64,000 nucleotides of DNA from Leptospiraceae bacterium. GTDB lineage: Bacteria > Spirochaetota > Leptospiria > Leptospirales > Leptospiraceae. Each line of letters starts with the position of its first letter. Within the stretch, counting starts at the first letter, position 1. The stretch is from positions 1 to 64,000 of the forward strand of contig JAKRSH010000002.1 of assembly GCA_022402465.1 (NCBI GenBank). Direction: 5' to 3'. The notes under the pieces were generated by a model. It had not been told where the DNA came from, made no database searches, and saw only the letters and a list, made by a program, of their open reading frames with translations. A program made the position numbers and the translations under genes. Below are positions 28,904-34,893 of the stretch, in pieces.

Positions 28904-29527
28904 ATGCAAACACCTAAAGAATCCACCAAATTAAGCATACTCAATTCTGCTAAGGAAGAATTTCTTGAAGTTGGATTTGATAAAGCCTCCATGCGTAAAA
29001 TCGCAAAAAAAGCTAACGTTTCTACCAGCAATATTTATAACTATTTCACAAACAAAGAAGGTATCTTAGAGCAATTGGTTAAATCTATCATTTCATCTAT
29101 TGAAAGTGGATTGAACCATATCTCAAGCGATGACCACGTAGAAAAGAGATTAAACTTTAGTTATGAGACTCTGAAAAACAGATTCAATGTCATTCTTTTC
29201 TTTGTAGATGAAAATCGAGATATACTTGATTTATTGTTATTTCATTCAAATGGATCAGTTTTTAGTAATTTTCTAGAGGATTTCACTGAGAGAATCACGC
29301 AATTGAACATTCGACAAATCAATTACTACAAAGAACACAAGGGTATGCAATCTTTGGTGACTCATGACTTTTTTATTCGAAATCTAGTTTCTTTCTTCTT
29401 GAATATTTTTGTTGAAATGATCAAAAATAAAAAATCGAAAGAAGAGATTCTTGAAATGGAAGATAATTTTCTTAAATTTATGCACTATGGAAGTAAGGCA
29501 ATTCTTCTAGACGTGAACGAATCCTAA
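28904..29527 (+). CDS. TetR-family regulator upstream of eutB
   Basis: The N-terminal 60 residues form a TetR DNA-binding domain: ILNSAKEEFLEVGFDKASMR, KKANVSTSNIYNYFTNKEGI. The rest is a helical ligand-binding and dimerisation domain with no recognisable effector signature. The ATG directly follows a nested inverted repeat. The gene is 15 bases ahead of eutB and in the same direction, so it probably regulates itself and the ethanolamine genes, in place of the usual AraC-type EutR. The effector is unknown. Confidence 0.85.
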   Translation: MQTPKESTKLSILNSAKEEFLEVGFDKASMRKIAKKANVSTSNIYNYFTNKEGILEQLVKSIISSIESGLNHISSDDHVEKRLNFSYETLKNRFNVILFFVDENRDILDLLLFHSNGSVFSNFLEDFTERITQLNIRQINYYKEHKGMQSLVTHDFFIRNLVSFFLNIFVEMIKNKKSKEEILEMEDNFLKFMHYGSKAILLDVNES

Positions 29528-29542
29528 TTCCACCTTGTTGGT

Positions 29543-30916
29543 ATGTATAAGAGCATCCTTGGTCATAAGACTTATACTTTCGCAAATCTTAAAGAACTAT
29601 TAGCCAAGGCAAGCCCTGCAAAATCAGGTGATGCTTTAGCTGGCCTTATAGCTTCTAGTCTTGAAGAAAGGGTGGCGGCAAAAATGACTTTGGCTGAATT
29701 GCCTCTTAAGGTATTTCTTGAGGATCTTGTGATTCCGTATGAGGAAGATGAAGTCACAAGACTCATCATAGACTTCCATGATAAATCAAGCTTCCTTACC
29801 ATATCTCATATGACTGTAGCAGATTTAAGAGACTATCTGTTAACAGAAGAATGTGATTCGACAGTAATTCATTCTTTAAAATATGCTCTCACTCCTGAAA
29901 TGGTTTCCGCAGTTTCCAAGCTCATGCGCAACCAAGATCTAATTCAAGTAGCTTCAAAGATACAAATTGTAACTCAATTTAGAACTACTGTCGGCTTACA
30001 GGATAGATTCTCGACTCGCCTTCAACCCAATCATCCCAGTGATAATCCTAAAGGCATATTAGCCTCAACTATAGACGGTTTATCTTATGCAAATGGGGAT
30101 GCAATGATAGGAATTAACCCTGCAACAGATAATATTGAAACAGCAAGAAAATTATTAAACCTAACTGATGAATTAAGAAATAAGTATAACATTCCTACCC
30201 AATCTTGCATACTTACTCATATAACCAACACTATCGAATTGATTCAATTGGGTGAGCCTGTAGATTTAGTTTTTCAATCTATAGGCGGAACAGAAAAGGT
30301 GAATAAATCATTTGGAGTGAATCTTTCCTTACTCCAAGAAGGCTGGGATGCTGGTTTAAGTTTAAAAAGAAATCAAACCTCAAAGCAGCTAATGTATTTT
30401 GAAACAGGACAGGGATCAGCCCTTTCTGCAAATGCCCACCACGGAGTAGATCAACAAACCTGTGAAGTGAGAGCTTATGCTGTAGCCAGAAAATTCGATC
30501 CATTTTTAGTAAATACTGTCGTTGGTTTTATTGGCCCGGAGTATCTTTACAATGGTAAACAGATTACAAGAGCTGGCTTAGAAGATCATTTCTGCGCCAA
30601 AGTATTAGGCCTTCCTATGGGATGTGATATTTGTTATACCAACCATGCGGATGCTGACCAGGATGATATGGATAATTTATTAAGTCTATTGGGTCTTGCT
30701 GGTTGCAATTTTATAATGGGTATTCCTGGTGCTGATGATATCATGCTCAACTACCAATCTACCTCTTTTCATGATGCACTCTACCTAAGAAAAATTTTGA
30801 ACAAAAAACCAGCACCAGAATTTGAATCGTGGTTAGAAAAGATGGGAATTTATAAACAAGAAAATGGAATACTATCCAATCCAAAATCACCCTTACTTGT
30901 GGAAGAACTTTCTTAA
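29543..30916 (+). CDS. eutB: Ethanolamine ammonia-lyase large subunit
   Basis: The 457-aa protein matches EutB in length. Key stretches are AKSGDALAGLIASS, FRTTVGLQDRFSTRLQPN, the active-site ANGDAMIGINPATDN, YFETGQGSALSANAHHG, NTVVGFIGPEYLYNG and LPMGCDICYTNHADADQ. The coenzyme-B12-dependent radical enzyme splits ethanolamine to acetaldehyde and ammonia. The partner eutC-like gene follows after 16 bases. No shell proteins, eutH permease or reactivase appear nearby, so this is a stand-alone, non-microcompartment version. Confidence 0.95.
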   Translation: MYKSILGHKTYTFANLKELLAKASPAKSGDALAGLIASSLEERVAAKMTLAELPLKVFLEDLVIPYEEDEVTRLIIDFHDKSSFLTISHMTVADLRDYLLTEECDSTVIHSLKYALTPEMVSAVSKLMRNQDLIQVASKIQIVTQFRTTVGLQDRFSTRLQPNHPSDNPKGILASTIDGLSYANGDAMIGINPATDNIETARKLLNLTDELRNKYNIPTQSCILTHITNTIELIQLGEPVDLVFQSIGGTEKVNKSFGVNLSLLQEGWDAGLSLKRNQTSKQLMYFETGQGSALSANAHHGVDQQTCEVRAYAVARKFDPFLVNTVVGFIGPEYLYNGKQITRAGLEDHFCAKVLGLPMGCDICYTNHADADQDDMDNLLSLLGLAGCNFIMGIPGADDIMLNYQSTSFHDALYLRKILNKKPAPEFESWLEKMGIYKQENGILSNPKSPLLVEELS

Positions 30917-30932
30917 GGAAATATAAAAGTAT

Positions 30933-32348
30933 ATGAGCCTTCACCCAAGAGATACCTGGAACCATTGGAAGAAGTATACAGATGCTAGGATTGGTCTAGG
31001 TCGATCAGGAAGGTCTCAACGAACACAGGATCTTCTTGCATTTGAGTTAGCATTTGCTAAAGCTAAGGACTCTTTACTCAAAGAAATTGATTGGAACATT
31101 TTCCAAAAAGATTTGGATTTGAAATTGAGTAATTTTATTAATAGTTCATCCATTCTCCTCGAATCACAAGCAAAAGATTTAAATGAATACCTAACTCGTC
31201 CTGACTTAGGTAGAAAGTTAGCAATTACATCAATGACTTTCCAACAAGACACAAGAAAGTTACAAATAGGCATAGCAATTACCAATGGACTTAGCTCAGA
31301 GGCTATCAGCAAGCATGCAAATCATTTCTTGGAAGAATTTCTAAGTCTAGTCCTAGGAAAAGATGGAATACCAGGAATTGAATTGCATATATTTTGTATA
31401 AAAAATGGAAGAGTTGCTATCGTAGACGACTTGGGTTCAAAATTCAATTTAGATCTAGCAATTCTCTTAGTTGGCGAACGACCGGGTCTCTCCTCCCCTG
31501 ATTCTATGGGAGTTTATCTAACCTACAAACCAAGAATTGGTTTAACAGATGATTCACGAAACTGCATCTCAAACATTCGACCCGCAGGTCTATCGCTAGG
31601 CTTGGCTGCTGAAAAATTATTCTATCTTACCAAGGAATCCTTGCAATTGAAACTGACAGGAGTGAATTTAAAAGATAGAAGTGGTGGAATCAATAATTTG
31701 GAATTCAAAACGAAAGTAAAGATCTGTGGAGTGAGAACTTCGGAAGATGCTGTCTTCATTGTAGAAATGGGTGCAGATTTTATTGGTCTAAATATTTCCC
31801 CAAAAAGCAAACGAAATATTGATTTGCAGAAAGCTCTAGAGATTTCCAAAGAAATTCGCCTAGCAAACGATAGATATTCCAAGAATGTTAAAATTGTATT
31901 GCTAGCCTTCTCAAATTCTTTGGATGAAATTAAAAATGCTTACAACTCGATTCAACCTGATTTTATTCAATTAGTATATTCTGATCCTAGTCTTACAAAT
32001 AATTGGCAAGAAATTATTTCTAGCCTTCCCTTGATTCCTTCTATTACAGCCTCAGAAGCCTTACATCTTTCGGAACTTCCCTTTTATAAAGATCAACTTC
32101 TAATCATTGATAGCCCAAGTAAAGAAATGGGTGGTGGTACTGGACAAACTTTTGCTTGGGAAGAGATTCAGCATTTTACCGGCAAGTATCTACTTGCAGG
32201 TGGACTAAACTCCGAAAATGTGGGATTAGCAGTTTCTAAACTACATCCTTGGGGTGTGGATGTTGCATCTGGGGTTGAAGATCAACCAGGTAAGCAGTCT
32301 CAAGAGAAAATACTGCAATTTATTCAAAATGCTAAGCGAATTTCCTAA
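30933..32348 (+). CDS. eutC-trpF: Fusion of EutC (ethanolamine ammonia-lyase small subunit) with TrpF
   Basis: The single 471-aa frame joins two complete proteins. Residues 1 to about 250 are EutC: ARIGLGRSGRSQRTQDLLAF, YLTRPDLGRKL, then GERPGLSSPDSMGVYLTY and NCISNIRPAGLS. Residues about 256-471 are phosphoribosylanthranilate isomerase: KICG with the catalytic Cys (265), LLIIDSP with the catalytic Asp (393), GGGTGQTFAWE, LAGGLNSENV and GVDVASGVE. The linker is only some ten residues. An in-frame TTG (31698) with GGTGGA upstream could allow a separate TrpF to be made as well. The end overlaps mutS. Both halves look active. Confidence 0.88.
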   Translation: MSLHPRDTWNHWKKYTDARIGLGRSGRSQRTQDLLAFELAFAKAKDSLLKEIDWNIFQKDLDLKLSNFINSSSILLESQAKDLNEYLTRPDLGRKLAITSMTFQQDTRKLQIGIAITNGLSSEAISKHANHFLEEFLSLVLGKDGIPGIELHIFCIKNGRVAIVDDLGSKFNLDLAILLVGERPGLSSPDSMGVYLTYKPRIGLTDDSRNCISNIRPAGLSLGLAAEKLFYLTKESLQLKLTGVNLKDRSGGINNLEFKTKVKICGVRTSEDAVFIVEMGADFIGLNISPKSKRNIDLQKALEISKEIRLANDRYSKNVKIVLLAFSNSLDEIKNAYNSIQPDFIQLVYSDPSLTNNWQEIISSLPLIPSITASEALHLSELPFYKDQLLIIDSPSKEMGGGTGQTFAWEEIQHFTGKYLLAGGLNSENVGLAVSKLHPWGVDVASGVEDQPGKQSQEKILQFIQNAKRIS

Positions 32349-34893
32349 AGAAGCTCTCGATACACCTGTTATGCGACAGTATTTGGAAATAAAATCCAAA
32401 TACCCCGATGCAATTCTATTCTTCCGTATGGGCGATTTCTATGAAATGTTCTTAGAAGATGCCAAAGACGCAGCCAAAATATTAGATATTGCACTTACGA
32501 AAAGATCCAATGCTATTCCTATGGCAGGAATCCCCTACCACTCTACTGAATCTTATATTTCTAGGCTCATCCATGCTGGTAGAAAGGTTGTTATCTGCGA
32601 ACAAACTAAATCCGAAGATCCCAAGGCTAAAATCATGAACCGAGAAGTTGTTCGAATCATGAGCCCAGGCACTTTGATCGAAGAAAATCTATTGCATGGA
32701 TTTCAGAATAATTTCATGGGTATCTTTCTCTCTACTGAAAGGAAAAATTACCTAGGTCTTGCCGATATTTCTACTTCTGATCTACTGTTCTTTCCTTTTG
32801 AGAAGGAAGATTCAGAAGGCTTAAGAGCGACTTTGTATAAATTTTCGCCCAAAGAAATTTTACTTCTAAAAGAACAAAAAGAAAAGTGGGATTCGATTTT
32901 ACCAGAAGGAAGCCTGAACTTTAAACCTCTTCTAACATTTGTAACAACAGAAGAATTCAAGAAAAATGAAAAGCCTAATAAAGAAAATGAGTACGAAGTT
33001 CTAGAACATATTCTAGATTGCTATCTAAGATATAATTTTCGTGAAAATACTTTTTCTTTCAAGGATCCACTTGTTCTAGAAGAAAATAATTATTTGGTCA
33101 TGGATGAGGAATCAGTTCGAAATTTGGAATTAGTTGAGAATTCATTCAACCAAGAACATACTTTGTTTTCTGTTTTGAATTTCTGCAAGACGGCTATTGG
33201 TAAAAGAACCCTTAAAAAAAATCTCTTATTCCCTACAAGAAGTCTCCAGACCTTAGAAGAACGATGGAAGGCAATTGAAGACTTAAGCAACAAAAAATTA
33301 CAAAATTTCATCAAACAAGAATTAGATAATACTATAGATACAGAACGAATTCTAAGTCGATTTCGTGGAGGCAAAGCTTACCCTAGAGATTTTTCTGGAA
33401 TACTCAAAACTCTAGAAGCATTTGCTAGAATGAGTCAATTTTTCTTGAATTTGAATCCGATTCTATTTGAAATGTTGAATAAGATAAATCAAGAATTAGA
33501 ACCGCTGGGAGTTGAAATTCAGGAAAGAATTTTTGAAGGCGAACTACCCGTTTTTTTAGGAAATTCACCCTTCCTTAAAGATGCCTTCAACCAAGAACTG
33601 GATACAGCAAGAGAAGCAAAAACCAAGGGCAAGGATTGGATCTTAGATTGGGAAGAAAAAGAAAAGAAAGCTACCAATCTTTCTACTTTAAAGATAAGGT
33701 TTAATAAAATACTTGGTTACTACATTGAAATATCTAGAGCACAAGCCAAGGATTTACCAAGCCATTATTCCAAGAAACAAACATTAGTTGGAAGCGAACG
33801 TTACACTAGCCCAGAGCTAGAAGAAATGGAAAGGAACATTCTTGGTGCTGATGCAATCATTGATGAAATAGAAAAGCACGAATTTGATTATCTGGTTTCC
33901 AAAACTCTGGAATCTGAATCTAGTATTCGTAAGCTTTCTTTTTGGATAGGCGAAATCGACTTCCTACTCTCACTTACTATAGCAAAAGATAGCTATCATT
34001 GGAATAAACCTATTTGCAATAGAAATAGAGAGCTCATTTTAAAAGACTGCAAACATCCTGTTGTGGAGAAATTTCTTCCTATTGGAGAGACATTTGTTCC
34101 CAATTCCATACACTTGGATGATAGAGACGAAGTGGTAGCTATCTTAACGGGACCAAACATGGCAGGTAAGTCCACCTTTATGAGACAGATTGCGATGAAT
34201 CAAATTCTCTTTCAAATAGGTTCCTACCTCCCAGCTAAGGAAGCTAAATTATCAATTGTTGATAGAATTTTTACACGTATTGGATCTGGTGACAACCTAA
34301 CAGCTGGAGAATCAACTTTTTTCTTAGAGATGAAGGAGACCGCCCGAATCCTCAATCATATGACTGAGGACAGTCTTATTCTTTTTGATGAAGTAGGTCG
34401 AGGGACTTCGACTTATGATGGCTTAAGTCTTGCTTGGGCTATCTTGGAATTTCTTTCCGAAAGAGACAATCGAACTAAAACAATATTTGCAACGCATTAC
34501 CATGAACTTACCGAATTGGAAAAAGGAAATGGTATCTTCAATTTATATATGGATACTTACGAAAAAGAAGGCGAAGTATTATTCCTCAAAAAAGTGAAAC
34601 GTGGAAAGGTTAAAAAATCTTTTGGAATCTATGTAGCTAGACTAGCGGGCGTTCCACATAAAATTACCAAACGAGCAGAAGAAATACTAGAAGGCTTAGA
34701 ATCTCGCAAGAAAGAAATCAGGATTCGAACGGAAGAACCATCTTTGTTTCCTGGATTCCAAGGTGGTCCAGATCGCTCCGCTCTAGCCTTAGATCGAATC
34801 CGAAAAAAATTACAAACTCTGCAAATTGAAAAAACAACTCCACTTGAGTCTATGCAGATCTTGGAAGAATTACAAAGATGGTCCAAAGAGTAG
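32329..34893 (+). CDS. mutS: DNA mismatch repair ATPase MutS
   Basis: The start at ATG 32329 lies inside the end of the eutC-trpF gene (20 bases overlap) and gives the normal MutS N terminus with the mismatch-reading motif FFRMGDFYEMF. The 854-aa protein has the connector and lever domains, Walker A GPNMAGKSTFMRQ, Walker B ILFDEVGRGTSTYDG, and the ATHYHELTELE signature. It detects mispairs as a dimer and recruits MutL. The longer frame from 32254 is spurious. Its last 24 bases overlap serB on the other strand. Confidence 0.95.
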   Translation: MLSEFPKEALDTPVMRQYLEIKSKYPDAILFFRMGDFYEMFLEDAKDAAKILDIALTKRSNAIPMAGIPYHSTESYISRLIHAGRKVVICEQTKSEDPKAKIMNREVVRIMSPGTLIEENLLHGFQNNFMGIFLSTERKNYLGLADISTSDLLFFPFEKEDSEGLRATLYKFSPKEILLLKEQKEKWDSILPEGSLNFKPLLTFVTTEEFKKNEKPNKENEYEVLEHILDCYLRYNFRENTFSFKDPLVLEENNYLVMDEESVRNLELVENSFNQEHTLFSVLNFCKTAIGKRTLKKNLLFPTRSLQTLEERWKAIEDLSNKKLQNFIKQELDNTIDTERILSRFRGGKAYPRDFSGILKTLEAFARMSQFFLNLNPILFEMLNKINQELEPLGVEIQERIFEGELPVFLGNSPFLKDAFNQELDTAREAKTKGKDWILDWEEKEKKATNLSTLKIRFNKILGYYIEISRAQAKDLPSHYSKKQTLVGSERYTSPELEEMERNILGADAIIDEIEKHEFDYLVSKTLESESSIRKLSFWIGEIDFLLSLTIAKDSYHWNKPICNRNRELILKDCKHPVVEKFLPIGETFVPNSIHLDDRDEVVAILTGPNMAGKSTFMRQIAMNQILFQIGSYLPAKEAKLSIVDRIFTRIGSGDNLTAGESTFFLEMKETARILNHMTEDSLILFDEVGRGTSTYDGLSLAWAILEFLSERDNRTKTIFATHYHELTELEKGNGIFNLYMDTYEKEGEVLFLKKVKRGKVKKSFGIYVARLAGVPHKITKRAEEILEGLESRKKEIRIRTEEPSLFPGFQGGPDRSALALDRIRKKLQTLQIEKTTPLESMQILEELQRWSKE

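Follow-up and report, generated by a model that had tools for sequence, protein, structure and literature searches.

A single open reading frame in a genome of the family Leptospiraceae joins a complete ethanolamine ammonia-lyase small subunit (EutC) to a complete phosphoribosylanthranilate isomerase (PRAI, or TrpF). We consider it probable, at roughly 0.68, that two complete enzymes with unrelated functions were fused in frame in this lineage specifically, when eutBC landed upstream of the trpF-mutS pair and the stop codon of eutC was lost. The frame lies on the forward strand at positions 30933-32348 of the window, by which we mean the whole 64,000-nucleotide stretch of DNA that was analysed. 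It runs from an ATG at 30933 to a TAA at 32346-32348 without an internal stop and encodes 471 amino acids. The initial annotation had read it as a full EutC followed in the same frame by a full TrpF, and it gave the coordinates, strand and frame correctly. In the assembly the join is real, and each half appears intact.

Each half matches its Pfam profile over the full length of the domain. EutC (PF05985) occupies residues 7-247, aligned to profile positions 2-235 of 235 (E=1.7e-70; 237 bits vs a cut-off of 25.8), and PRAI (PF00697) occupies residues 262-466, aligned to positions 1-193 of 193 (E=1.6e-31; 110 bits vs 22.7). The EutC half also passes the NCBIfam equivalog cut-off of NF003971 (252 vs 230 bits). 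For the TrpF half, many NCBIfam PRAI models give matches, all of them below the equivalog cut-off (best 141 vs 215). The nearest solved structures are small-subunit chains of ethanolamine ammonia-lyase for the EutC half (3any, 5ysn, 3abo) and PRAI for the TrpF half (1lbm, 1nsj). The G+C contents of the two halves are alike (0.375 and 0.368). An AlphaFold prediction made from a three-row alignment (mean pLDDT 54.5) folded EutC fairly well and did not fold TrpF. The features of the fusion and its neighbours are collected in Table 1.

Table 1. Features of the EutC-TrpF frame and adjoining genes, in window positions.
Feature	Position	Strand	Evidence and remarks
TetR-type regulator	28904..29527	+	PF00440; adjoins eutB
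eutB, ethanolamine ammonia-lyase large subunit	29543..30916	+	NCBIfam NF011649, 689 bits vs cut-off of 554; PF06751
EutC half	30933..31676	+	residues 1-248, complete to the GVNLKD motif; PF05985 full length
Linker RSGGINN (R249-N255)	31677..31697	+	replaces the stop codon of EutC
TrpF half	31698..32348	+	residues 256-471 plus stop; PF00697 full length; TTG at 31698 a possible internal start
mutS	32329..34893	+	Pfam MutS I, III, IV and V; start overlaps the fusion end by 20 bp

Residue conservation agrees with the domain matches. Invariant positions were defined without the window sequence, from ten other EutC and nine other TrpF sequences. The EutC half keeps 42 of the 43 positions invariant among the former, and the TrpF half keeps 30 of the 33 invariant among the latter. 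The cysteine of the KICG motif and the aspartate of the IIDS/ILDS strand, which are the general base and acid of Thermotoga maritima PRAI, are both retained; they are C10 and D138 of the TrpF half and fall in invariant columns. In a five-genome comparison, the window TrpF differs at 12 of 65 positions that are invariant among four other family members, and the TrpF of each of the others, treated in the same way, differs at 3-9 of 56-62 positions. MutS served as a control, with 35 departures at 331 positions for the window and 17-40 for the others. These counts give a slight hint, non-significant as tested, that the TrpF half is perhaps evolving faster. Among the EutC sequences, that of G018 (L046, G018:C12:128147-128986) spans 290 columns against 242 window residues, which suggests an internal insertion of ~40 residues.

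The linker between the two enzymes is short. The GVxLKD motif at the end of EutC finishes at residue 248, and it is followed by RSGGINN and then by LEFKTKVKICG. Because the likely old start of TrpF is codon 256, the linker comes to ~7 residues, or to 13 if everything before V262, the first residue of the Pfam match, is included; the initial annotation had put it at about ten. The free EutC proteins of relatives stop 4 to ~25 residues past the same motif.

Both halves are the sole copies of their genes. The host genome (3,990,365 bp in 45 contigs; completeness 100, contamination 0.55%) yields one PRAI match and one EutC match, each of them the fusion, and the same PRAI search was positive in all 14 control genomes. 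A second trpF, which the initial annotation had thought worth looking for, and a second eutC are thus both absent from the genome. The remaining tryptophan genes are present and scattered, with trpE on contig C42, trpD on C17, trpC on C25 and trpA on C38, where a trpB-like frame, read from the sequence, adjoins it. The pathway is otherwise complete, and no source of TrpF other than the fusion is visible, so loss of TrpF should cost prototrophy.

The surrounding genes form a one-strand cluster in the order aroE-folC-tetR-eutB-eutC::trpF-mutS, with gaps of 13, 62, 15 and 16 bp before the overlap with mutS. This spacing suggests an operon, though it is not proof of one. The partner subunit gene eutB is thus directly adjacent to the fusion, ending 16 bp upstream of it. 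Where relatives carry a permease gene, this genome has the TetR-type regulator, 15 bp upstream of eutB; eutB, the fusion and mutS could all be under its control. A permease like that beside the eutBC of relatives is found elsewhere in the genome (contig C37, 39% identity). EutA was not found in the genome.

The ancestral arrangement on the trpF side is visible in relatives. Each of the six family genomes that gave a trpF match (G001-G005 and G007) has trpF as a free gene directly adjoining mutS or overlapping it. The association between a tryptophan gene and a mismatch repair gene is itself conserved, from 31698 to 34893 in the window and at L033, L034, L035, L036, L037 and L038 in relatives. 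A GDSL-like gene downstream of mutS is common to the window and G001. The eutBC genes of the family (G003, G005, G006 and G007) occupy a locus separate from trpF-mutS, behind a permease gene; in G007 the pair sits at a contig end with a permease fragment upstream. EutB is 67-69% identical to its family counterparts and 61-65% identical to those elsewhere, which fits movement of eutBC within the lineage, as judged by identity and not by a tree. Three family genomes carry, between eutB and eutC, an opposite-strand frame that by eye resembles an FKBP/SlyD-like peptidyl-prolyl isomerase (L040:7092-7574, L041:8170-8652 and the matching place in L042).

The same architecture was sought well beyond the family. 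In the search of 393 Spirochaetota genomes, none of the 24 other genomes with EutC among the matches listed shows a fusion with TrpF; in at least 14 of those 24, TrpF is present elsewhere, unfused. None of 164 plasmid records covers 80% of the fusion or spans both halves. The fusion was not found in genome contigs searched with exact-peptide patterns, which reach only very close relatives, nor in viral contigs. A complete EutC frame stands at the end of the IMG/VR contig IMGVR_UViG_2556921653_000004 (L066:2995-3798), where it is probably host flank and not viral. Literature searches on eutC with trpF, on Leptospira ethanolamine ammonia-lyase and on Leptospira trpF-mutS returned nothing relevant. 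The view that EutC is an unusual partner for TrpF is thus borne out among the searched relatives. It had also been proposed that homologues always kept as separate genes would speak against the fusion. Every relative found does keep them separate; the fusion here is not refuted by this and is instead marked as lineage-restricted.

Apart from the junction, the two halves resemble known stand-alone enzymes. Like stand-alone EutC (Escherichia coli; PDB 3abo, 5ysn, 3any), the EutC half has a full-length domain, the expected motifs and eutB directly upstream; stand-alone EutC ends just past its motif, whereas this one bears a C-terminal TrpF. The TrpF half shares with stand-alone PRAI (T. maritima; PDB 1lbm, 1nsj) a full-length barrel, the KICG cysteine and the conserved aspartate, and its overlap with mutS is the same as in the six relatives. 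It differs in having no ATG of its own and no stop before it, and in being attached to EutC. TrpF in frame with another enzyme is known from TrpC-TrpF (E. coli, PDB 1pii) and TrpF-TrpB (NCBIfam NF010376). The partners in those fusions belong to the same pathway, whereas EutC belongs to ethanolamine catabolism, and trpC and trpB of this organism lie elsewhere in the genome.

These observations are best explained by a short series of events. The eutBC pair would have come to sit directly upstream of the conserved trpF-mutS pair of the family, and the eutC stop codon would then have been lost, so that the short eutC-trpF interval became an open linker. The direction of these events is supported on the trpF side, because the trpF-mutS junction is conserved in the family. 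Translation would continue from EutC through the linker into TrpF to give a 52-kDa chain. Its EutC half would join EutB in an ordinary AdoCbl-dependent ethanolamine ammonia-lyase, and the tethered TrpF barrel would be a passenger that still catalyses PRA isomerisation in the usual way. In several bacteria TrpF is active as a monomer, and it also functions within TrpCF fusions, which makes the passenger role plausible.

Some free TrpF may additionally be made. The initial annotation had pointed to an internal TTG, and this codon is present in frame as codon 256, preceded by a weak ribosome-binding-like site. A stronger version, in which efficient initiation at the TTG yields EutC-TrpF plus substantial free TrpF that carries the tryptophan flux, is a tentative reading to which we give somewhat less than even odds. 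The position of the codon speaks for it. The nearest free TrpF, that of G001 (46% identity), begins MPKETKVKICG, and its start methionine is as far from KICG as is the TTG; the TrpF starts of other family members fall one to four codons later. Pairing with the anti-Shine-Dalgarno (anti-SD) sequence upstream of the TTG reaches -7.1 kcal/mol, which is better than 82% of 40 sampled genes, a hand-picked set of start sites biased to ATG, and is attained by 2.9% of 653 internal in-frame start-like codons. The site is less special, however, when scored as a contiguous, spaced SD match, since 5.7% of internal codons and 27.5% of genes then equal it, and TTG is a weak start located here within a translated frame. 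Promoter matches within the fusion are no more numerous than in shuffled sequence.

It is unlikely that the fusion is a sequencing error and that the true genome has a stop codon between separate, closely spaced eutC and trpF genes. A single wrong base could in principle hide such a stop, since one substitution would turn any of seven codons in the range 247-261 into a stop; the genes are separate in all relatives found, and the fusion was read from the only genome available for its genus. At the junction, however, no base is repeated five or more times in a row and the other two frames are full of stops, so that an indel or frameshift artefact is improbable. The completeness and low contamination of the genome likewise count against an error. 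A separate trpF would, moreover, need the weak TTG as its start, as there is no in-frame ATG or GTG near the junction.

The idea that selection keeps TrpF on ethanolamine ammonia-lyase as a purposeful bifunctional enzyme, for example so that the neighbouring TetR regulator ties the synthesis of tryptophan, or the expression of trpF-mutS, to the use of ethanolamine, would suit the tight same-strand cluster and the two intact halves, but it is very unlikely: the arrangement is not conserved, a literature search gave nothing combining eutC, trpF and fusion, and the two enzyme reactions share no metabolite, so that channelling is not expected. Just as improbable is the fuller form of this idea, in which EutC-TrpF is fixed and expressed, lyase complexes carry TrpF, tryptophan synthesis depends physically on a B12-enzyme complex (with trpF-mutS transcription on the ethanolamine operon) and the coupling is selected. 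A B12-enzyme complex bearing TrpF, which the initial annotation had seen as a new arrangement, is possible; none of the findings speaks for its having a purpose in metabolism or regulation. The evidence speaks more for neighbours joined by chance within a restricted lineage than for a bifunctional enzyme with a purpose.

To our knowledge, and in the searches made, EutC-TrpF appears to be an undescribed domain pairing. It offers a clear case of neighbouring, unrelated genes fusing, with the ancestral trpF-mutS arrangement still visible in relatives. It poses a testable question, namely how, with no second copy present, a multimeric B12 enzyme and an essential step in biosynthesis can cope with being linked, and it is a warning that fusion alone is poor ground for inferring a functional link.
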